Counted from the stretch's first letter, positions 24,475 through 63,968 are shown. The stretch: 64,000 bases of DNA from Pseudobdellovibrionaceae bacterium (GCA_030591685.1 JAUVAX010000002.1:62001-126000); one strand, 5' to 3'. The notes: generated by a model not told the origin, from the sequence alone. A program made the numbers and translations.

Positions 24475-24603
24475 TAACAAATCCTAGAGTTGGATAAAAA
24501 GAAGTTCTTTCTTCTGTTTTTTTTGAGAAGAAGACTCATAGCTGATTTAGAGCGCCCGACTTAGCCTTTTTGAAATCTAAAAAGTGCATTAGACAGACGA
24601 AGA

Positions 24604-25335
24604 CTACTTTTTTGTCCCTATAAAAATAAGGTGGGGGTCTTTACGGAAAAACCTTTTGAGCTGAGACTTAATCCAAAGCGTGCTAAAAACACGGCCTTCA
24701 TGACGCCAAAAATCAGTTGTTTCACAGTGCAGAGTCTGAAAGGAGTGTTTTTTCATAACTTCAACTAGGGAGTGTTGGTCAAAGCTTCTAACGTGCTGAA
24801 AGCGGTGAAAATACGCTCCACACTCTGCACATAAAACTTTTGCAGAGGTTAGGTTTTCATTATTAGGGGTTGTAACAATCACTCTTCCGCCGGGTTTAAG
24901 TATCCGACATATTTCTGTAAGCGTTGAGCTCAGGTCTGGGTCAAGCAGGTGCTCAATGGTTTCAATAAAAAATAAATTATCAAAGGAGTTTGATTGCAAC
25001 TCAGTTGACGGTAGGCCAGAGAGGGTAACCCCTTTTGTAAAATTACTATATTTAGTGAGCTTACCCTCAACAAGTTCCACAGACTGGGCTGAAAAATCAC
25101 AGATGGTGAGTTTAACTAGTGGTTTTTTAATGAGCTTCTCTGAGAGGTACCCATGTCCAGCCCCAAAATCGAGCACGTCGCCAGAAATAGAGAACTTGTT
25201 ATTAACGTATCTAATGAGGCCAGTGCCAACCTGCTCTGTAAAGTAAGAGCTAGATAAGAAGGGTATTTTTTCAATATTATCCCAAAAAAATTTAATCTTT
25301 TCATGATCCCATTTTATGTCATGAAGTTGAGCCAT
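24604..25335 (-). CDS. SAM-dependent methyltransferase (class I)
   Basis: 243 residues. Motif I LDFGAGHGYLSEKL, then the ICDFS acidic loop, and later LKPGGRVIVTTPNNEN. Class I Rossmann methyltransferase; the substrate cannot be predicted. Cysteines at CAECG in the second half could bind metal. Start ATG 25335 on the minus strand. Confidence 0.8.
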   Translation of the reverse strand: MAQLHDIKWDHEKIKFFWDNIEKIPFLSSSYFTEQVGTGLIRYVNNKFSISGDVLDFGAGHGYLSEKLIKKPLVKLTICDFSAQSVELVEGKLTKYSNFTKGVTLSGLPSTELQSNSFDNLFFIETIEHLLDPDLSSTLTEICRILKPGGRVIVTTPNNENLTSAKVLCAECGAYFHRFQHVRSFDQHSLVEVMKKHSFQTLHCETTDFWRHEGRVFSTLWIKSQLKRFFRKDPHLIFIGTKK

Positions 25336-25394
25336 AGGGCCTCCAAGCTAAAAAATCCATTTAAAGGGGTTTTGACCCCCTACAATGCTCTCAG

Positions 25395-25423
25395 AAAAAA
25401 ACCACCCTGTCAGGTGGTTTTTT
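25395..25423. terminator. Bidirectional-looking terminator
   Basis: AAAACCACC, a 6-base loop, then GGTGGTTTT, with A runs on one side and T runs on the other. It lies in the gap upstream of the methyltransferase and downstream of the lipoprotein gene at 25508. Confidence 0.7.
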
Positions 25424-25444
25424 ACAGACTCAACAAACTAGTGC

Positions 25445-25488
25445 GATATAAAAAATTATGGCTTAGACCCATTGTCACTTATTTTTTT
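25445..25488. repeat. Dispersed intergenic repeat, copy A
   Basis: ATAAAAAATTAT hairpin, then GGCTTAGACCC-ATT-GTCAC and a T tract. It is the most divergent of the four clear copies and lies 20 bp after the 25508 gene stop. Confidence 0.6.
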
Positions 25489-25507
25489 GTTAAGTAAAGG
25501 GCCATAG

Positions 25508-26206
25508 TTAATTAAGAGTGCCCGACACAGAATCTCTAAAACGACCTGAGAAAGTCCCGCCCTCAAAAGCACTGCTCACTGTGCCTGAGTTAATTTTATA
25601 AGCATCTAACGTTACGGCGACGTTTCCAATGGCATCGATAAATGAGGTTTGAGAGCCTGAGTATGTGCAGCTATTAGCTGCGGCAGCGATTGTTAGGGTC
25701 CCCGTCGTGCTTCCGCCAGCAGAGTTGTAGGAGTAATTCATGGAGCATGAGGAGCTATCCCCAGCCACAGCATTCCATGTGGAGTTCAGTACGGCCCCTT
25801 TGGAGCTAGTAAAGCTATTAGCAGGGGTGGCTATCGTTATGGCCGCAGGGAGGGTGACGCTTGATGTATGTGCGGCTTCGTCTACTCTATTTAATGTGAT
25901 CGTTACCGTGTCACCAGCAATGGCTGTAACTGTAGCGCTGTAGGTATAAATCCCAATAATTTGGGATTCTGTCAGTATGGTGGGGGTCCCGCCGTTGACA
26001 CTCACTTCAACGTTGTCACCTGAGGAGAGCTGGATTGACGACCCTCCGATGCCACACCCCACGGTATAGTGAACTGAGATAGAGGCCGAAGCGCCTGTTG
26101 TCGTCGCTGTGTATTGGGCACAAAACCCACTTGTTTTTATATTTGCAGAGTCCGTATTTGCACAACTGATTGCAAATACAGAGAAAAAAAATAAACAAAT
26201 CCTCAT
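25508..26206 (-). CDS. Lipoprotein, Thr/Ser/Ala-rich, unknown function
   Basis: 232 residues from ATG 26206. This internal ATG is preferred over an earlier one at 26269 because AGGGGA lies just upstream and the N terminus becomes a clean lipoprotein signal (MRICLFFFSVFAIS-C). The mature protein is very rich in Thr, Ser, Ala and Gly, with beta-strand repeats (VTITLNR, ITIATP, VTLDAYK) and several Cys. It may be a surface beta-sandwich protein. No family recognised. Confidence 0.7.
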   Translation of the reverse strand: MRICLFFFSVFAISCANTDSANIKTSGFCAQYTATTTGASASISVHYTVGCGIGGSSIQLSSGDNVEVSVNGGTPTILTESQIIGIYTYSATVTAIAGDTVTITLNRVDEAAHTSSVTLPAAITIATPANSFTSSKGAVLNSTWNAVAGDSSSCSMNYSYNSAGGSTTGTLTIAAAANSCTYSGSQTSFIDAIGNVAVTLDAYKINSGTVSSAFEGGTFSGRFRDSVSGTLN

Positions 26207-26557
26207 CACTGCATCCCCTAATCTAAGTGTCTCATTTTGAAACACAATACTAAGCCTCTTACTTAACACTTCGGCATCTTTACTTAAATATTATATCACT
26301 ACTATACTTAAATAAGACTAAAAATCAATATCACCTCTTCACAGGAGGTCTGCAATAAACCATGACCTAGTATCGCTCTCAATACTAAACGACAGGCTTT
26401 TTAATGTTACAGTGACAGCCCGGACCCAGAAAACCAGCGCCACATAAAAAGTTATGATTTAGAGTCTCCGTGCCCCATTTTTATTGAGGGGGTTGAAAGC
26501 AAAGGGGAGCATATATTTTTTAAGTGAATTTGTGGAGCTTAAGCCGACAAAGGATGG
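26207..26557. other. 351-bp gap between lipoprotein and cytochrome genes
   Basis: It contains repeat copy B (26443-26482). No convincing gene or RNA seen. Confidence 0.5.
26443..26482. repeat. Dispersed intergenic repeat, copy B
   Basis: ACATAAAAAGTTAT, then GATTTAGAGTC-TCC-GTGCC and TTTTT. It lies 75 bp after the cytochrome gene stop at 26558. Confidence 0.75.
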
Positions 26558-27550
26558 CTATGGAGTGCCGAGGCTTCTGAAGTAAAGGCTTAAGTTTTCA
26601 AGGTCCTCTTTACTGAGTGGGTTAGGTGCTGACTTTAAAATTCCAGGCATAAAAAGCCCATTGGCTCTATCTCCGGTAAGAAAGCCATTTAATTGGTTAT
26701 AAGTAAATGTATGATCTTGCCCGGCTAAATTTGGCCAATTAGGGTTGGTGGCAACAAAAGAGTCATTTGCGTGGCAGTTTCGGCAAGAGAGCCTGTTGCT
26801 GAGTTCAGCTCCTTTAGTTATTTTTTCTTGTATATCCTCTATGTGTGTAAGCATAGGCTGCTTTTTTACAGGGAGCTCATTAAAAAAAGTTAAAATCATT
26901 TGCTCGTCTTCTTCTGTTAAATTAACCGCGTAATTCTTCATGGCCCTCATGCTTAAATCTAATCGAGCCTCCGTGCGAAAATCATTGAGTTGCGCTTTCA
27001 TATAGTTAATATTTTGCCCCGCTAAATTGGGGACCCCAGGGATAGAAGATATGCCGTCAGCTCCATGGCAATTGGTGCATTTGTCTTGTGCCTGAGTAAT
27101 GGGCCTGTCAGGTAGTGGTAGGGGCTCATCGATGGTCGTTAGCGCTTGATCATCGGGGGTTGACTCGTCGTTACGGTTTTTATCTTTAACAGATTGGATC
27201 CAGTTTTTAATGGCCAGTCTGTCTTCTTCTGTAAATTCCTTTGCTTGAGGGCTACCGGATAAAGGCATAAGTTCATCTGTAACAGCCCTTAAAAGCTTTC
27301 CGTTTTCAACGTACAAGAGAACGTCGGTTTGGTTTAATAAGTTAGGTGGAGAGAGAGAGGGGTGGCAGGCTGAGCAAAATTTTTCAAAAGTGGGTCGAAT
27401 TGACTCGTAAGAATAGTTTTCATTTAGGCCTGGGGCCTCATTAAATGGCTCTTTAATAGGCTGATGGGGCCCTGACCTTTGGCAACTTGCTAGTGTAAAA
27501 AAGACTATTACTAGCAATAGGTTAGCCCAATTTTGTAATTTAAAAACCAC
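26558..27550 (-). CDS. Triheme c-type cytochrome lipoprotein
   Basis: 330 residues. Lipoprotein signal with C23 (LASC). Three haem sites: C59xxC62H63, C158xxC161H162 and C256xxC259H260. The second and third parts form a tandem class I cytochrome c pair (c4-like, each with GVPNLAGQ or NWPNLAGQ), and the first is a separate N-terminal cytochrome domain with MPLSG as possible distal Met. It is expected to carry electrons in the periplasm or on the outer membrane. It is divergent from the haem-barrel gene, sharing an 85-bp promoter region, so the two may be partners. Confidence 0.85.
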   Translation of the reverse strand: MVFKLQNWANLLLVIVFFTLASCQRSGPHQPIKEPFNEAPGLNENYSYESIRPTFEKFCSACHPSLSPPNLLNQTDVLLYVENGKLLRAVTDELMPLSGSPQAKEFTEEDRLAIKNWIQSVKDKNRNDESTPDDQALTTIDEPLPLPDRPITQAQDKCTNCHGADGISSIPGVPNLAGQNINYMKAQLNDFRTEARLDLSMRAMKNYAVNLTEEDEQMILTFFNELPVKKQPMLTHIEDIQEKITKGAELSNRLSCRNCHANDSFVATNPNWPNLAGQDHTFTYNQLNGFLTGDRANGLFMPGILKSAPNPLSKEDLENLSLYFRSLGTP

Positions 27551-27635
27551 CTTTTTAACTCCAGATCAACGTAACAAACATAGACTTTAAAGTTATTCCT
27601 TGTTATTTAACTAAGCAAAATTCAAGCCAATAATA

Positions 27636-28883
27636 ATGAAAGGCCTCCTGCCAGTGAATATCTCTACAGCTTCTTTTTTGAGGCCATTTTTTTTAACAGT
27701 ATATATGGTTTTACTACAAAGTTTTTTTCTCAACTCTGGGGTGCAGGCACGCCCTGAGTTTGCTGTTCGGCATGGCTTTACCAGCTGTACAGCATGTCAC
27801 GTATCGCCATCAGGGGGCGGACCTAGAAATATTACGGGCAAGGCTTTTGGGTTGAATGGTTACGCTCCAGGGCCTTATAGCGGCCAAGATGTTTGGTCCA
27901 TAGATGCTCGTGGGCTTTTTTACTACCCAGAAAAGCCGACTGTAGACAGGGGCGGGCTAGGGTTGATGGCGGGCATAGTGAGTGCAAACCTCCCGATCAC
28001 CTCCAATGAAGAGGGTAAAGCTAAACTGCGAGCCGTTCTTTCTCATAACATTGGTGGGTATCCTGTTGGGGCGGGGAGCCCTCGTGAGACATTTTTGCGT
28101 TGGGAGTTTGATAGAGAATCAAAAACAAGTTTATTACCTCAGCATATTATTTTAGGGAGATTTGTCCCCCCTTTTGGTTTAGTTACCGATGAACACCGTA
28201 CTTACACAAAGCTTCAAACTAAGAGCACATGGAATGACCTAGATGCCGGTGTTATGTTTTCAGGGGCCCCATTAAGTTTTTTACATTATGATTTGGCCCT
28301 TGTTAACGGGCAAAAAACAGCAGGAGCGGGCATGGGTGTGGGCGATGCCAACGTATGGGGAGGGGTTTTAAATTTACGTTTTCTTTCACCTAGTCTGCCA
28401 GTTAGTTTTGGTTTAAGTGGATTACATTATGAAGAGGGGCCGGGTAAAGAGTCGCCTTCAGCGAGTTCGATGTATGTTTTGGTGAACTTAAAAAAGTTAT
28501 CTTCGGGTTTTATCAATGCGGTACTACTTGCTGAATATGTTGTGGCTCAGGGGTGGAATTCGACGATCAATGGTTTTTTTACGGACCCGAACTATAAAGC
28601 AACGGTAGCTGAGTCGGAGTCACGAGGGGTGTATGCTTTTTTGAATTTAAAGATAACTCAAAAATTAAGTTTCATTTATAAGTACGATGAGTTTTCGCCT
28701 AATCAGAGCTTTCCTTCGGATTATTACTCACGCCATGGATTGGGGTTTAAATATTACCTGGGGCCTAATGTGTTTGCTCAGGCGAGGTGGGAAAAGGCGC
28801 ATGCGACTCACCCTAGTGAGGATAATGGCACTGGGATGGGATCTGAGGGCGCCACGTGGGCCTACCTGCAAATGTCCATATAG
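27636..28883 (+). CDS. Monohaem N-terminus fused to outer-membrane beta-barrel (Cyc2-like arrangement)
   Basis: 415 residues. Signal peptide-like N terminus (to about 38), then ARPEFAVRHGFTSCTACH with haem site C51xxC54H55, a CHVSPSGGG segment, and a long beta-strand-rich C-terminal region ending in an aromatic residue pattern (WAYLQMSI). One N-terminal haem followed by a porin-like barrel is the layout of Cyc2-type fused cytochrome-porins, which move electrons across the outer membrane. Resemblance to Cyc2 is by architecture and local motif, not alignment. It pairs divergently with the triheme cytochrome. Confidence 0.72.
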   Translation: MKGLLPVNISTASFLRPFFLTVYMVLLQSFFLNSGVQARPEFAVRHGFTSCTACHVSPSGGGPRNITGKAFGLNGYAPGPYSGQDVWSIDARGLFYYPEKPTVDRGGLGLMAGIVSANLPITSNEEGKAKLRAVLSHNIGGYPVGAGSPRETFLRWEFDRESKTSLLPQHIILGRFVPPFGLVTDEHRTYTKLQTKSTWNDLDAGVMFSGAPLSFLHYDLALVNGQKTAGAGMGVGDANVWGGVLNLRFLSPSLPVSFGLSGLHYEEGPGKESPSASSMYVLVNLKKLSSGFINAVLLAEYVVAQGWNSTINGFFTDPNYKATVAESESRGVYAFLNLKITQKLSFIYKYDEFSPNQSFPSDYYSRHGLGFKYYLGPNVFAQARWEKAHATHPSEDNGTGMGSEGATWAYLQMSI

Positions 28884-28895
28884 CCACACCGTCCT

Positions 28896-28916
28896 CCTGG
28901 TGCCAGGCACTTTTTT
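28896..28916 (+). terminator. Probable terminator after the haem-barrel gene
   Basis: CCTGG-TG-CCAGG stem followed by CACTTTTTT; the T tract continues into a palindromic TTTTTTAAAAAA. Confidence 0.6.
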
Positions 28917-29421
28917 AAAAAAGTAAATACTTTAAAAATAATTTACGATGCTGAGATTGTCTTGAGCGGGGTGTTTTACCTAAATCAACATACCAATCGG
29001 GCAAAGTTAATAACTTTGCCCAGTTGTCTTTAGTGCCGTGAGTAAAAAAAATGTAACTCGAATGCCTGTAAAACTTTAAGTTCTCTAAACTCACCATATT
29101 GAGTGTCCAGAGGGATGGGGGGCGGACTCCGCCCCTATTTGAGTCACTTTTCCTGAAAAGTAATAGGCAGACATAATCTCTGAAAAATTTCAAATTAAGA
29201 CATATTTTTGAAAGTGTAAATTTATTAGATACCCTATGGCTCCGCCGTACAGAAAAATCTCTGTACTAGGGCTAAAGGTGAGCTGACAGGGCATGGTCAT
29301 TGCAGAATAATAGATAATGACATGCTTGGGGGCATTGTCTACAGCAGAGAAGACAAAGAACTTCACACTGCTGTGAGGCCGTTAAGGGATAGAAACAGTA
29401 TTAATGAAGAGGGGATATCTA
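28917..29421. other. 505-bp gap with two hairpins and no accepted gene
   Basis: Hairpins: GGGGCGG-ACT-CCGCCCC (29119-29135) and GTACAGA-AAAATC-TCTGTAC (29247-29266). A stretch with no stops runs from about 29227 into the next gene in another frame, but it has no start context and no recognised family. A minus-strand open frame at 28915-29193 also looks non-coding. Confidence 0.5.
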
Positions 29422-30336
29422 ATGAAAATGCAAAGTGGAGTATATTTATTTATCTTAGGAGCAACATTAGTTTTATTTCAGAATTGTAGCCAGTCATCAT
29501 CACCTGAGAGTAGTGATGCCACATCATTAACTGATGAAATAAATAACAGTATATTAGTAGACGCCCAGCCGGCCCCAGATGATACGCCGGGCGCGACTCA
29601 GAGTGAACTTGATAAAAACATATATGATTCGAATTCACAGTTTTACACAACAACCTTTAATAATTTAGAGGCCTTTTTGCAGGTAGATATGAATTATTGT
29701 TATGACAATCAAAACATCGTAAGTACCTGCATCACTCGGAGCTTTGGTTTTATTGCAAGGCCTCAGTTTTATGATCGATCAACAGCTGCTGATAATCAGC
29801 ATTTAAGAGGTTTTAATGATGCAGCCGTTAAGCCATGGGATGTTATGGAGAATAGCACAGGTACTGGCTCATTATTTTTTAATTCAGCAGGCAGGGGTCT
29901 AGAAATTGATATGAACCGAAACTTTCCTGTTAAATTTTTAGTGGCCGGTGCAGATAACTCTATAGAGTTTAAGGTGTCTTTTAACCCGGAATTTGTAGTC
30001 AATGTAGAGTGGCAAATGTACTCTTTAAATTGTTTAGGTAGCAGTGATTTTACTGAAGCGAATGAGGCCGGAACTGCAGGGTTAGACGGTAACGGCCTCG
30101 TCTATGAGAGTTTACTAGATCCCTATAATAATGATGATAAATGTTTTAGAATAACTCATATTGGTGCCTATAAAGATTCAGACAATAATTATAAACTTGT
30201 TATTAAGTCCCCTCCGGTAGGGTTTCAGGGAGTTCTTTGGTATCGCTTAATCTTGAGCGATGAGTATGCCGCAGGGGTGGGTTTCAATGCCTATAGCTCA
30301 ATTAAGGATGAAATTGTATATGTGTACTCACAATAA
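29422..30336 (+). CDS. Lipoprotein of unknown function
   Basis: 304 residues from ATG 29422, which is preceded by GAGGGGATATCT; the upstream ATG at 29404 has no ribosome site. Lipoprotein signal ending LVLFQNC, an FQNC lipobox seen in many Bdellovibrio lipoproteins. The mature part starts with a Ser/Asp-rich linker, then a beta-rich domain with several Cys (MNYCYDNQ, SLNCLGS, DDKCFRI). No family recognised. Probably outer-membrane anchored. Confidence 0.7.
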   Translation: MKMQSGVYLFILGATLVLFQNCSQSSSPESSDATSLTDEINNSILVDAQPAPDDTPGATQSELDKNIYDSNSQFYTTTFNNLEAFLQVDMNYCYDNQNIVSTCITRSFGFIARPQFYDRSTAADNQHLRGFNDAAVKPWDVMENSTGTGSLFFNSAGRGLEIDMNRNFPVKFLVAGADNSIEFKVSFNPEFVVNVEWQMYSLNCLGSSDFTEANEAGTAGLDGNGLVYESLLDPYNNDDKCFRITHIGAYKDSDNNYKLVIKSPPVGFQGVLWYRLILSDEYAAGVGFNAYSSIKDEIVYVYSQ

Positions 30337-30512
30337 AGAAGCAAAAATAACAAATATTTATAGTTTCAATTACCAATTTTGTTTTAAAGTTACACGGCTC
30401 TTTTTCTAAATTGGTCCTAATTAGGGTTTTAAAATATTCTATAAAAAATAATAAATTGATATGTTTATGGAATAGTTATATTCTCAACTGAACATGAGCC
30501 TGGAGGCTAATC

Positions 30513-30800
30513 ATGAAAGGACTTTCAAAGCTCATCATACTAATTCTCATAAGTATTGGTACGGGGTATTTAACGGGTAAATACATTGTTCAGCCTAATA
30601 ACACTGTTTTTTTAGTTCTTTTTTTAGCGACACTCTTTTTGGCGCTGCCCTTGATGTGTGAACTTTTATATAAAGTACTGACGACAAATAAGAGTGAAAA
30701 AAACAAAATAGTACTTTCTAAATTTACAGGGTATACATTTTTATTTTCACTAATAATATTTTTCGGAACATTCGGATGTCTTTACGCTTTGTCGAACTAA
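30513..30800 (+). CDS. Small three-helix membrane protein
   Basis: 95 residues with three hydrophobic segments (about 5-22, 31-54 and 71-92). CTGGAGG precedes the ATG. No family recognised. Free-standing gene. Confidence 0.6.
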   Translation: MKGLSKLIILILISIGTGYLTGKYIVQPNNTVFLVLFLATLFLALPLMCELLYKVLTTNKSEKNKIVLSKFTGYTFLFSLIIFFGTFGCLYALSN

Positions 30801-30834
30801 TACCTTGAGCATGGACAGGTGCTTTTATAAGTAT

Positions 30835-30875
30835 GACATAAGAAATTTATGACTTAGAGTCTCTATCCTTTTTTT
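30835..30875. repeat. Dispersed intergenic repeat, copy C
   Basis: GACATAAGAAATTTAT, then GACTTAGAGTC-TCT-ATCC and seven Ts. It lies 43 bp after the NnrS gene stop. Confidence 0.75.
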
Positions 30876-30918
30876 GTATACGATTTGAACCATCGCTTTT
30901 TTACATAAATTAACAGAA

Positions 30919-32025
30919 TTACTTTTGTAAATTTGGACCAGTTAAGATTTTATAATATTCTATAAAAAATAATAAAAAAGACAAACACCACAGAACTCCA
31001 GAGGTTTGCAGCAGAGTTAGGTAAAAACCAGGCACAAAAATTGGTAAAAAAGATCGAACGATAACTGCAATATTTAGTAAAACATAACTAAATACCATTA
31101 GTGAACTGGCTTTAAGTGGCCTGCCAGTGTGCCCAAGGCTTACCCTGGTCATCATACCGAACATTACAATACCAAGCGCTCCCATAGTAAAGTAATGAGT
31201 GCTTAATGCGGGTAAGAGCTTTAAAAATGGGTTTAATGCAGTGCTGAGATACCCTATTATCAACCATAAATACCCCATATATAAAACAGCGAGTATTGGC
31301 TTTTTAAATGCACTCAAGGGGTGCCAGCGGGACCAGCGAACACATTGTAATACAAACATTAAGGCCGCTAAAAGAGGTCGTACTAATTGTATGTCGACAA
31401 GGGAGCTTAATACAAACGCGACAAAGCACACCCCTGTTGATACCTCTAACCATTTAAGGCTGCCTACTGAAGGCACCTGAAGGGCTTTTGCTCTAAAAAA
31501 GGGTATAACTCGCCCTGAAATTAAAAGAACAAATCCGACTAAGGTATCAACAGCCATTGTCCTGCCCAGTAAAGGGTCATAAAAATGAATAATAAGATCA
31601 CTAATATATAAGGCGAGTAGCATAAACAATATTTTTTTATTTCTAGGTTTTTCTTTTATCCATAAGGTGGGGATGAGAAACCAAATAAGTGCGGGGATAG
31701 TTATTAGGTCATATACGTTAGCGCCGCCTATAAAAATAAAAATTCGACCCAAAACCCATATTAAAATAAGGGCAAAAAGTTTTCTACCATGAACCCCTCT
31801 GACGCCTGACCAATTTTGACTAGCGGTGAGTAAAAAGCCCATAAGAACGGCTAATGAAAACCCAAAGATCATCTCATGAGCATGCCAAGTCACGGGGTCT
31901 AAGGTGCTCGGTAGCTGTAAGTAGCCAGAATAGCTAATAACCCAAACGCCAATAGCTGCCGTAGAGAAAAGTGCCGCGAGTAAAAAAAAGGGTCGAAACC
32001 CAAGATGTAAGAGGTGCTGTTTCAT
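30919..32025 (-). CDS. nnrS: NnrS family membrane protein
   Basis: 368 residues, roughly ten membrane helices. The N terminus GFRPFFLLAALFS and the WHAHEMIFGF motif are hallmarks of NnrS, a haem- and copper-containing membrane protein linked to resistance to nitric oxide stress. GGAGAG precedes the ATG. No denitrification genes are nearby, so its role here (perhaps NO tolerance) is inferred. Confidence 0.9.
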   Translation of the reverse strand: MKQHLLHLGFRPFFLLAALFSTAAIGVWVISYSGYLQLPSTLDPVTWHAHEMIFGFSLAVLMGFLLTASQNWSGVRGVHGRKLFALILIWVLGRIFIFIGGANVYDLITIPALIWFLIPTLWIKEKPRNKKILFMLLALYISDLIIHFYDPLLGRTMAVDTLVGFVLLISGRVIPFFRAKALQVPSVGSLKWLEVSTGVCFVAFVLSSLVDIQLVRPLLAALMFVLQCVRWSRWHPLSAFKKPILAVLYMGYLWLIIGYLSTALNPFLKLLPALSTHYFTMGALGIVMFGMMTRVSLGHTGRPLKASSLMVFSYVLLNIAVIVRSFLPIFVPGFYLTLLQTSGVLWCLSFLLFFIEYYKILTGPNLQK

Positions 32026-32301
32026 TATTACTCTCCGTTAAAAAAAATGTTTGACCTGCTATTGGCCGAACCATTAAGTTGAGTTAATCAAAAGAAATAT
32101 GATCCCTAGAAGACACGGCTATCTAACAGCCGTTGTAGGGTGAACGGCGTGCCAAGCGCATGGTTAACTTTAATTTTTTCACATAAATATAAGTAATATC
32201 AAAAGTATTTTTATCAATGTACTCCTCTGTAATTATCGGTGGATGAAAAGAATCAAACTTCATGCTGACCCCAAAAGGCTAGCACTATCGAGAGGGACAA
32301 T

Positions 32302-32556
32302 TTATTTAATAAAAAGCCACTTACCATCCACTTTTGAGAGATAAATATTAACATGATTAACTCCCCATTTGTCTTTTAGCATCAGTGGGCTCATATTCTT
32401 TTTATTTACTATATTAATAATTTTCCCATTACCAACGATTTTGTATTTTAACCCCTCGGCGGACAACTTTAATACTTCTTTATCTTTTTCGATCAAGCTG
32501 AAGGTTTCTGAAAATTCAAAAGCTTTGATTAAGTTTGGAATATGATAGGATGTCAT
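32302..32556 (-). CDS. Small protein of unknown function
   Basis: 84 residues. Alternating beta strands (LKYKIVGNGKIINIVN, VNIYLSKVDGKWLFIK) suggest a compact beta domain. It follows the secreted protein gene by 16 bp on the same strand, so they are probably an operon. No family recognised. Confidence 0.5.
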   Translation of the reverse strand: MTSYHIPNLIKAFEFSETFSLIEKDKEVLKLSAEGLKYKIVGNGKIINIVNKKNMSPLMLKDKWGVNHVNIYLSKVDGKWLFIK

Positions 32557-32572
32557 CGTTTCTTCTGCCGAT

Positions 32573-33025
32573 TCAGTTGCCTAGTTTTGTACAATTAAAG
32601 ACGATTACTTCTGCTACACCATCTTTGTACGTTCTCGATTCAAAACCTGTCCCAGTACTCAAATCAATTTCAATTCTTGTTTCTTTTGTTCTTGCGGCAT
32701 AACTATAATCATTTTTAACATATAGAAATTGTATTCCATTATCTATTACTAAATTTTGGAGCAATCCCTCTTCAGTGCTACCATAAACGACTCCCCCCGC
32801 TGAAGGACTCGGGTACTTTGTTCCTGTATGAAGCCGGTGGTTTCTACTAAACTCATCAGCAACTATACACATATCTTCACCCAAAGACTGCGGAGACTTG
32901 AAACCTGAAGAATAGCTACATCGATATCCATGGTTTAATCCAAATCTGTTTTGACAGAGGTCTCCAAGTGCGGCAACGGATGGCAGGGAACTTAAAAGTA
33001 TTAATCCAGACAATAATTTTTTCAT
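32573..33025 (-). CDS. Small secreted cysteine-containing protein
   Basis: 150 residues from ATG 33025, chosen over the ATG at 33040 because GGAAGG precedes it and the N terminus is then a clean signal peptide (MKKLLSGLILLSSLPSVAA). Four cysteines (DLCQNRFG, YRCSYSSG, MCIVADE, FNCTKLG) may form disulfides. No family recognised. First gene of a two-gene operon with 32302. Confidence 0.6.
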   Translation of the reverse strand: MKKLLSGLILLSSLPSVAALGDLCQNRFGLNHGYRCSYSSGFKSPQSLGEDMCIVADEFSRNHRLHTGTKYPSPSAGGVVYGSTEEGLLQNLVIDNGIQFLYVKNDYSYAARTKETRIEIDLSTGTGFESRTYKDGVAEVIVFNCTKLGN

Positions 33026-33337
33026 ATTTTTTCCTTCCATCGGTCATAATTGAAATGGTTTTCTGAAACCAGCTCATCATATATTCGACTACGCTCTAAT
33101 ACCTCTGCTCGCTTCAGTTAGCCAGATCAGCTCTAAAACAGTTAGTTAATAAAATTACGAAGTGCATTATATCACAGAAATGTGGGAAATAGTCATACCG
33201 TGAAAAAAGGTTATAGTGTTAGACACTTTTTTATCATTTCAGCGTGATATAAGAAACTTATAATTTAGAGTCGCTGTCACTTTTTTTAGTCCCTTTTTTT
33301 CTATGTGAAAATGACAAAGCCCCTAAGGGCCTTATGC
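33026..33337. other. 312-bp gap with repeat copy D
   Basis: It contains AGTGT-TAG-ACACT followed by TTTTT (33215-33232) and repeat copy D (33246-33288). No gene seen. Confidence 0.5.
33246..33288. repeat. Dispersed intergenic repeat, copy D
   Basis: GATATAAGAAACTTATAA, then TTTAGAGTC-GCT-GTCAC and seven Ts. Its ATAAG-AAA-CTTAT hairpin is perfect. It lies 50 bp after the DUF2608 gene stop. Confidence 0.75.
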
Positions 33338-33880
33338 TTACCTAAAAATTCGATCCCATACCATTTTAAGTTGCTGCCACTGATTGATCACGCGGGATTT
33401 ATCGGAAGCCAAAAACTTTTCGATTCGTTTATCCATTTTTCCATAACGATAAACGCTTAAGTCAGAACCCATAAAGCCAAAAGTCTCCTGCATGTGATCA
33501 GTGTGCTTTGTTAAATCGTCCACAAAGATAATAGCCTTGTATCGCTGCCCCAGTCTTTCGAGTAAATCTTTCAGCATTAATCCTTTGTGTTGCCCAGCTG
33601 TCATATAAACCCCTCTTTGAAAGCTCACTTGGCGTTGTTTGCCATACTGAGGAACATAAAGACCGGGAAACCCGGAAGGAGTGTTGTAATCTAAGTGGAT
33701 TTTATTATTCATTAATACCCGCTCAGTGGTGCTACGCATCTGCGGCCCACGTGAGGTTAATGCTATAACCGGTAGACCTAAGAGTTGCAGTTTGTAGACC
33801 TCCATGGGGACAAAAGCCTCTGGCGGATGCATGTTAGCCATGCTAAACAGCACATTCTCAATTTCATAAAACTTTATCAT
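33338..33880 (-). CDS. DUF2608 (HAD-like) protein, probably 5'-truncated
   Basis: 180 residues. It contains DUF2608 features: IALTSRGPQMRSTTE, TAGQHKGLMLKDLLE and AIIFVDDLTKH. The HAD-type N-terminal DxD motif expected in a full protein is missing, and the ATG at 33880 follows a stop directly, with no Shine-Dalgarno. The 5' edge lies where a LysR remnant on the other strand also begins, so both look cut at the same point. Likely a remnant; a short active form is not excluded. Confidence 0.55.
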   Translation of the reverse strand: MIKFYEIENVLFSMANMHPPEAFVPMEVYKLQLLGLPVIALTSRGPQMRSTTERVLMNNKIHLDYNTPSGFPGLYVPQYGKQRQVSFQRGVYMTAGQHKGLMLKDLLERLGQRYKAIIFVDDLTKHTDHMQETFGFMGSDLSVYRYGKMDKRIEKFLASDKSRVINQWQQLKMVWDRIFR

Positions 33881-35151: not shown

Positions 35152-35238
35152 TGGTGCGCCAGAGAGGACTTGAACCTCCACGTCCTTGCGAACACCAGCA
35201 CCTCAAGCTGGCCTGTCTACCAATTTCAGCACTGGCGC
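35152..35238 (-). tRNA. tRNA-Leu (anticodon GAG)
   Basis: 87 nt on the minus strand. Acceptor GCGCCAG pairs with CTGGCGC. The anticodon arm CCAGC-TTGAGGT-GCTGG gives GAG, reading CUC. Long variable arm as expected for leucine, T-loop GGTTCAAGTCC, and CCA encoded. Confidence 0.95.
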
Positions 35239-62510: not shown

Positions 62511-63968
62511 ATGGCACTTTATATTTACAATACAATGACTCGAACAAAAGAGCAGTTTAAACCCCTAGTAAAGGGTCAGGTGCGAATGTACGTGTGCGGC
62601 CCTACGGTGTACAACTTATTACATGTGGGTAATTTTAGAGGCGCAGTATTTTATAACTTAGTTAGAAACTGGCTTGAAAAGTGTGGCCATGAGGTGAACT
62701 ACGTATTTAACTTTACAGATGTAGATGATAAAATAATTAACCGAGCCCAAGAAGAGGGCGTGACCGCTCAAGAGATCTCAGAGAAATATATCACTGAATT
62801 TAAAAAAGACTACAAAGCCCTAGGGTTAAGGCCTCATACAAGTAACCCTAAAGTATCAGATAACATGGACGCCATTGTTGATTTTATTAAAGAACTTATC
62901 GAAAAAGAAAAGGCTTACGACGTAGATGGAGATGTTTATTATTCTGTCTCATCCTTTGATGATTATGGTAAATTAAGTAATAAAAAAATAGATGAGTTAG
63001 AGTCGGGACACAGAATAGATGCGGACGATAATAAAAAAGCTCCTGAGGATTTTGCTTTATGGAAAAAGTCAAAACCAGGGGAGCCTGAATGGGATTCTCC
63101 GTGGTCAAAAGGTCGCCCAGGTTGGCACATTGAGTGCTCTGCAATGAGTAGAAAGCTATTAGGGGACTGCATAGATATACATGGTGGGGGTTTAGATTTA
63201 GTGTTCCCGCACCACGAAAACGAGATTGCACAAAGTGAAGGATGCTCAGGGCATACCTCAGTGAAGTACTGGGTGCATCATAATATGATTGAATTTGATA
63301 AACAAAAAATGTCTAAATCTCTTGGTAATATAAAAACTTTGAGAGATTTTTTAAAAGAGTACAATGCTGAAATTTATAAATACTTAATGAGCACCTCTCA
63401 TTATAGAAGTATTATAGATTTCTCTCCAGACCAGGTGGACCGGTCCATACAGTCATTAGCTAAATTTTACTCAGCCCTTAAGCTCGCTAAAGATTGTATG
63501 TCTTTAGATCAGGGTTTGGTGCCGGTGCCAGATAAGTTTCACAAAATTATTGATGAGGCTGATGATAAAATCACCCGTGCACTTAATGATGACTTTAATA
63601 CCCCAGAGCTTTTTGCAGCCCTTTTTGACGTTACAAGAGAGTTTAACAAACGAGTTCGCACCCCAGGGGCTGTGAGCCCTGAAAAATCGGCTATCAGTGA
63701 AGTGTATTATGCCTGGATACGATCACATGGTGAGTTGTTAGCACTTTTTCAAAAATCAGCTGGCGAGTTTTTAATGGAGCTAGATGATATGCTATTAGCC
63801 AAAAAAGGGCACAGGCGTATAGAGGTCGACAAGCTAGTGGATGAACGAACTCAGGCTCGACACAATAAGGACTATGCAAAGTCAGACGAAATCAGGGCAC
63901 AGCTTCAAGCCCTAGGCATTGCGGTTCAGGATACAAAAGACGGCAGTGTGTGGGAAGTGGCGAAGTAG
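62511..63968 (+). CDS. cysS: Cysteinyl-tRNA synthetase
   Basis: 485 residues. HIGH-type CGPTVYNLLHVGN with zinc ligand C29, GWHIECSAMS, HHENEIAQSEG, and KMSKSLGN. Ends TAG at 63966. Probably co-transcribed with gltX. Confidence 0.97.
   Translation: MALYIYNTMTRTKEQFKPLVKGQVRMYVCGPTVYNLLHVGNFRGAVFYNLVRNWLEKCGHEVNYVFNFTDVDDKIINRAQEEGVTAQEISEKYITEFKKDYKALGLRPHTSNPKVSDNMDAIVDFIKELIEKEKAYDVDGDVYYSVSSFDDYGKLSNKKIDELESGHRIDADDNKKAPEDFALWKKSKPGEPEWDSPWSKGRPGWHIECSAMSRKLLGDCIDIHGGGLDLVFPHHENEIAQSEGCSGHTSVKYWVHHNMIEFDKQKMSKSLGNIKTLRDFLKEYNAEIYKYLMSTSHYRSIIDFSPDQVDRSIQSLAKFYSALKLAKDCMSLDQGLVPVPDKFHKIIDEADDKITRALNDDFNTPELFAALFDVTREFNKRVRTPGAVSPEKSAISEVYYAWIRSHGELLALFQKSAGEFLMELDDMLLAKKGHRRIEVDKLVDERTQARHNKDYAKSDEIRAQLQALGIAVQDTKDGSVWEVAK

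Follow-up and report, generated by a model that had tools for sequence, protein, structure and literature searches.

RAYT-like HUH/Y1 genes that are flanked by terminal inverted repeats, rather than by GTAG REPs, have been described as TIRtrons (Di Nocera et al. 2013, PMC3733652), and the termini of these TIRYT elements also give rise to moderately abundant non-coding repeats, which occur single, paired or grouped (PMC3733652). REPs are found for the most part in gaps between unidirectional or convergent genes (PMC3733652). The repeat family studied here was met in a 64,000-nucleotide stretch of DNA from a Pseudobdellovibrionaceae bacterium (GCA_030591685.1 JAUVAX010000002.1:62001-126000), the whole of which is called the window, and it shares features with several of these systems. 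As in TIRtrons, RAYT genes with flanking inverted repeats (seven RAYT genes) occur in the same genome as non-coding repeats derived from the same termini, the ends of the non-coding element matching the RAYT inverted repeats (GGTGACGGAGC on the left, GTCTCCGTCCC on the right). The termini here are GTGACGGAG or GGGACGGAG, however, and do not fit the GGGGWSAS consensus exactly (PMC3733652); GGGGACGG(AG), found at some flanks, fits it at all but one position. Like the REP/REPIN sequences associated with RAYT (Nunvar et al. 2010, PMC2817692; Bertels and Rainey 2011, PMC3116915), the copies are short, intergenic, non-autonomous and RAYT-linked, and most of them share the REP preference for gaps between unidirectional or convergent genes (PMC3733652). 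They differ from the GTAG-tagged palindromic stem-loop of 20-40 nt that defines a GTAG REP, as the consensus has no tag, the 50-nt module has no stable palindrome or supported fold, and the copy number is 12 and not above 100. MITEs, as a general class, are likewise small, non-coding and TIR-bearing, and their ends match those of a resident transposase element, but the matching elements here are Y1/HUH and not DDE, and the inverted ends are imperfect; no target-site duplication was seen when the flanks were inspected.

Four clear copies had been recognised in the original prediction, and all four are borne out, at 25443, 26440, 30832 and 33243 (c25, c26, c30 and c33), all on the plus strand and far above chance. 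Their alignment gives about 50 nt in common, (T)CAGYRYGAYATAARAAAnTTATGAYTTAGAGTCTCYGTCmCTTTTTTT, and the likeness extends from (T)CAG through the T tract, with no flank homology among the four, left or right, beyond this shared 50 nt. A 40-column weight matrix, trained on the same four copies that it scores, sets these members (43-47 bits) apart from the rest of the 64 kb, where the runner-up reaches only 8.6, thus leaving no fifth copy in the window. An independent test used profiles made solely from copies outside the window, run on the window, the reversed window and 10 dinucleotide shuffles. The three best matches of the right-module profile were c26 (27.4 bits), c30 (21.9 bits) and c33 (17.6 bits), against 11.3 bits for the best of the 11 controls, and the full-length profile again placed these three at the top, aligned to its right end. 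The remaining copy, c25, was not recovered by these independent profiles and is tied in only through c26, c30 and c33. The looser match at 24535, which had been put forward beside the clear copies, was missed by every matrix, profile and covariance model and is no member. A weak match of the independent profile at 63143-63213 falls in apparently open coding DNA and was rejected as chance.

Each window copy corresponds to a right-end module. The most diverged, c25 (25440-25488, +), is found by models from known copies, and 19 bp separate it from the stop codon of a minus-strand ORF (25508-26269). The c26 module (26436-26484, +), which has the terminus GTCTCCGTGCCCC, matches the 129-bp element described below by BLAST (E 0.001), and a gap of about 75 bp lies between it and the stop of a cytochrome c gene (26558-27550, -). 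c30 (30830-30876, +) sits between convergent genes, at 30513-30800 (+) and 30919-32025 (-, NnrS), and c33 (33239-33288, +) is 49 bp from the stop of a DUF2608 gene (33338-33880, -). The spacing of 20-75 bp originally reported therefore holds, with the T-tract side 19-75 bp from a minus-strand stop in 4/4 copies; the other side faces the start of the next minus-strand gene in three and, for c30, the end of the plus-strand gene. Among the neighbours of the repeats are the cytochrome c and NnrS genes and one for a secreted protein of 415 aa that has a single CxxCH (27636-28883), and the gene set at 25508-32025 is possibly a respiratory or NO-related cluster. Two other features of this region were noticed. 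A perfect inverted repeat at 25395-25424, AAAAAACCACCCTGTCAGGTGGTTTTTT, is likely a bidirectional terminator, 15 nt from c25. A 71-nt direct repeat with 76% identity has its first copy (30385-30455) upstream of the ORF at 30513-30800, and its second (30906-30976) lies across the 3' end of NnrS.

The proposal that the repeat might be no commoner in the genome than chance would allow was examined in the 2.66 Mb (98 contigs) of the window's own genome and was not borne out: eight further copies were found outside the window. A covariance model built from just the four window copies returned the four, followed by sites at C55, C5 and C83 (E 0.013-0.023) and, lower down in the same search, C5b, C65, C80 and C87, and the sites outside the window strongly resemble one another by inspection. 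A sequence-only model of 11 copies gave 12 matches at E <= 8.5e-7, with the next at 0.07, a gap that is partly by construction because 11 of the 12 are training sequences. Applied to 140 further genomes of the order, the same model found no convincing copy (best E 0.004), and the weak matches in relatives were dismissed as chance or coding DNA; the exact core pattern had 0 matches in 84,980 species genomes, among which the records of the own genome may be absent. Judged by sequence comparison with the 140 other genomes of the order, the family would be species-specific.

Outside the window, the 50 nt form the right end of an element of about 129 bp, which is present in three full-length copies and in decayed ones. 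The full-length copies at C5, C80 and C55 show 99, 85 and 78% identity over 129/129 positions, to a query modelled on the C5 copy. Decayed versions at C83 and C44 retain a left half with significant similarity, whereas C65 and two tandem C87 copies form a third subgroup; module copies in tandem occur at C5 and at C87. The element starts with GGTGACGGAGCAAA and finishes with TTTAGCGTCTCCGTCCCTCTTTTT, so that its ends make an imperfect inverted repeat, and these ends differ, being GTGACGGAG on the left and GGGACGGAG on the right. With its conserved inner half and its 50-nt right module, this element appears to represent an undescribed family. In the window copies only the drifted right end is recognisable, with CATTGTCAC, CTCCGTGCC, CTCTATCC and CGCTGTCAC in place of CTCCGTCCC, and the left 85 nt bear no significant likeness to the elements or to one another; having one terminus instead of both, the four are classed as fragments, not as intact elements. 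Other sequences of about 120 bp, at L065:330-460 and at L073 (C47:121414), are bounded by GTGACGGAGC and GGCTCCGTCCC / GGCTCCGTTACC, and thus have RAYT-type ends with a different inside. Near the C65 and C87 copies, GCCAGGCAC / GCCTGGCAC (near 1461 in L011 and 1446 in L014) possibly mark another repeat family.

The same genome harbours full RAYT elements. A PF01797 search found five Y1 genes, and the own-genome RAYT alignment used as a query raised this to seven RAYT genes in all, plus a broken one inside the window. The proteins carry the HUH motif (DNHAH) and a tyrosine region (YIEANP), and the NCBIfam model of the REP-associated tyrosine transposase matches them at E 1.6e-10, under its cut-off. 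Five of the elements are of the GTGACGGAG type and two of the GGGACGGAG type. A GTGACGGAGTCCG left end lies upstream of 5/7 genes, and in four of these five elements GGCTCCGTCAC or GACTCCGTCAC follows 1.07-1.09 kb further on; the fifth, at C35, shows a left end only, being cut by a contig end. The elements at C4 and C94 have the form GGGACGGAG...CTCCGTCCC. Inverted termini 1.05-1.15 kb apart surround the RAYT genes at C47, C49, C50, C84, C4 and C94. GTGACGGAG occurs 32 times in the genome versus 10 for the reversed control, and it also marks the sequences of about 120 bp at L065 and L073. The RAYT left end GTGACGGAGTCCGCCTCCGGAC (L016-L020) opens with GGAG and continues into a GTCCG-CCTC-CGGAC hairpin, which recalls the layout of REPs; the right ends of these elements have no obvious hairpin. 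The same termini are found beyond this species. A RAYT of another family of the order (G015) has GTGACGGAGTC at both flanks, and in G037, which has four RAYT genes (L182, L186, L189 and L191), three have GGGACGGAGC at both flanks; the remaining related RAYTs, whether from a different family of the order or a different genus of the family, have one matching end or none. Extra solo GGGACGGAG/CTCCGTCCC copies lie near the G037 RAYT elements, and small elements may therefore exist there too. RAYT homologues of many other bacteria are flanked by inverted repeats of different sequence, like the TIRtrons of Di Nocera et al. (PMC3733652).

The broken RAYT element of the window (28843-29147, -) lies between c26 and c30, within the repeat cluster. 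Its coding part (28843-29103, -) is a C-terminal remnant of a RAYT (HUH/Y1) transposase with an internal stop, aligned to the own-genome RAYTs at E 2.1e-27 over profile positions 135-217. Next to it, at 29104-29147 (-), a left-end relic, GTGACtcaaatagGGGCGGAGTCCGCCCCCCatCCC...GGACAC, was read from the sequence by comparison with the left ends GTGACGGAGTCCGCCCCCCGGACCCATCCC, and by this reading GTGACtcaaataGGGGCGGAGTCCGCCCCCCATCCC, just upstream of the coding remnant, is a worn left-end copy; it has two mismatches to the 13-mer at 29123-29135, a level of match that chance also gives in this window. Beside the relic, a GTGCCAGGCAC-like hairpin at 28896-28912 possibly belongs to another repeat family.

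Of the functions originally suggested for the repeat, a small mobile element is the one supported, as the repeat forms the right end of an element of 129 bp with inverted termini that match those of resident RAYT elements. The window copies are homologous to that right end, the termini are shared with resident and related RAYTs, and the copies are intergenic at the loci examined. The left end of the element is that of the first RAYT type and the right end that of the second (GGGACGGAG...CTCCGTCCC), with a terminal match to the left end of the C4 RAYT element. Because the termini are those of resident RAYT (TIRYT) elements, movement of the element most likely took place in trans. We propose that the window repeats are probably solo or decayed right ends of a small non-autonomous element mobilised by RAYT-type transposases, a reading in which the mobility itself, the single-stranded DNA mechanism and the loss of left halves are what we infer. 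The link is one of termini and not of the 50-nt module: the window-copy model finds no match at the RAYT loci, and window copies compared directly with RAYT right ends show weak likeness (z 1.6-3.0). No single resident RAYT element has the exact pair of GTGACGGAG on the left and GGGACGGAG on the right, and four same-orientation copies within 8 kb are clustered more tightly than random insertion predicts. The window copies are old, with drifted termini and no recognisable left half.

Recognition, cleavage and phosphotyrosine joining on single-stranded DNA are the known way of the RAYT/HUH enzyme class. In the process proposed here, a RAYT/TIRYT transposase would recognise GNGACGGAG end sequences on single-stranded DNA, cleave the element end and join it via a phosphotyrosine, and acting in trans it would insert the short element into intergenic DNA. 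The window copies would then be elements that lost their left halves, or solo ends that moved. The latter idea can be taken further: the right module of about 50 nt may itself disperse as a single TIR/REP-like repeat, the 129-bp element being a pair of ends and the window copies never having had left halves. Only 50 nt are common to the four window copies, whose flanks share nothing, the module is in tandem at C5 and C87, and single, dimeric and grouped TIR repeats surround the TIRYT genes of Di Nocera et al. (PMC3733652). We nevertheless regard this account as unlikely, as C83 and C44 still show a decayed left half, which makes left-half loss by decay plausible. A more specific version, in which the module spreads as a solo end via one-ended RAYT transposition and repeatedly lands just behind stop codons with its T tract gene-ward, is a distinctly doubtful proposition; if true, the module would be a mobile unit with a single end, served by an HUH transposase that selects gene 3' ends as targets.

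A transcription terminator or a 3'-UTR RNA element of the minus-strand genes had also been considered, and the 4/4 window copies found 19-75 bp past a stop, with a T tract on one side, would suit it. The claim that the repeat is always 3' of minus-strand genes holds in the window but not genome-wide, where a stop codon is faced at 6 of the 9 loci with readable T-tract-side neighbours (at C5 and C55 a contig end next to insertion-sequence-like DNA interrupts the flank) and not at 3, a bias that is not significant; this agrees with the REP preference for unidirectional and convergent gaps (PMC3733652). The C65 and C87 copies are oriented opposite to their flanking genes, the C44 copy lies between divergent genes, and some copies outside the window are upstream of genes. 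Read on the strand of the gene, the tract consists of A rather than T. On neither strand does a terminator-like site overlap a window copy, none of the four has a GC-rich hairpin followed by a T tract on the gene strand, and c33 comes after a separate hairpin-like AGGCCCTTAGGGGCTTT. The predicted hairpin itself is not supported: over 11 copies its stem pairs in 68.8% versus 68.9% in shuffles, pairs changed on both sides number 1 versus 1.4 expected, and RNAalifold predicts no pair. The paired changes claimed for it survive at the outermost pair only, among the window copies, and show no covariation over the 11. Single window copies fold no better than shuffles, and among all copies folded only the C83 copy falls below -2 z. 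No Rfam family passes its gathering score on a window copy, the sole overlap being RNAI at 25393-25510 (26.5 versus 47 bits); between 22 and 36 kb only a tRNA (35155-35238) does so. With strand, terminator scan, folds, covariation and Rfam all against them, the known-RNA, terminator and UTR readings were dropped, and a terminator or UTR element is very improbable. Gene-cassette recombination sites, either attC-like or Xer/dif-like via ATAA-N4/5-TTAT, would likewise give same-orientation repeats after genes, as in the four copies within 8 kb, and the window copies do have a small palindrome like a Xer core. That palindrome is confined to the window subfamily, however, its left arm missing from the C65 and C87 copies, and a dif/Xer-like site was rejected on this ground. 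An integron attC was rejected as well: the best integrase match in the genome reaches 65 bits against the TIGR02249 cut-off of 265, a score on a par with Xer-type recombinases, the same search gives below-cut-off matches in 14/14 controls, and inspection showed no GTTRRRY/RYYYAAC core. Some intervals between copies also hold genes on both strands, and cassette sites of either kind are extremely unlikely. Finally, chance similarity of AT-rich intergenic DNA, which the low-complexity A/T stretches of the consensus might suggest, is negligible as an explanation, given the matrix gap (43 versus 8.6 bits), and is refuted by the 12 copies across the genome and by the recovery of window copies with independent profiles.

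A small element mobilised by RAYT-type transposases thus remains our preferred reading, and it adds an undescribed, apparently species-specific, non-autonomous family to the RAYT/TIRYT elements. In this order, RAYT elements that end in GTGACGGAG or GGGACGGAG are conserved from family to family. The combination of GTGAC on the left and GGGAC on the right in one element, with both RAYT types in the genome, would provide a neat test of how strict transposase end choice is. There is no need to annotate the repeat in the window as a regulator; most likely it represents the worn right end of a small hitch-hiking transposon, and not a new terminator or gene regulator.
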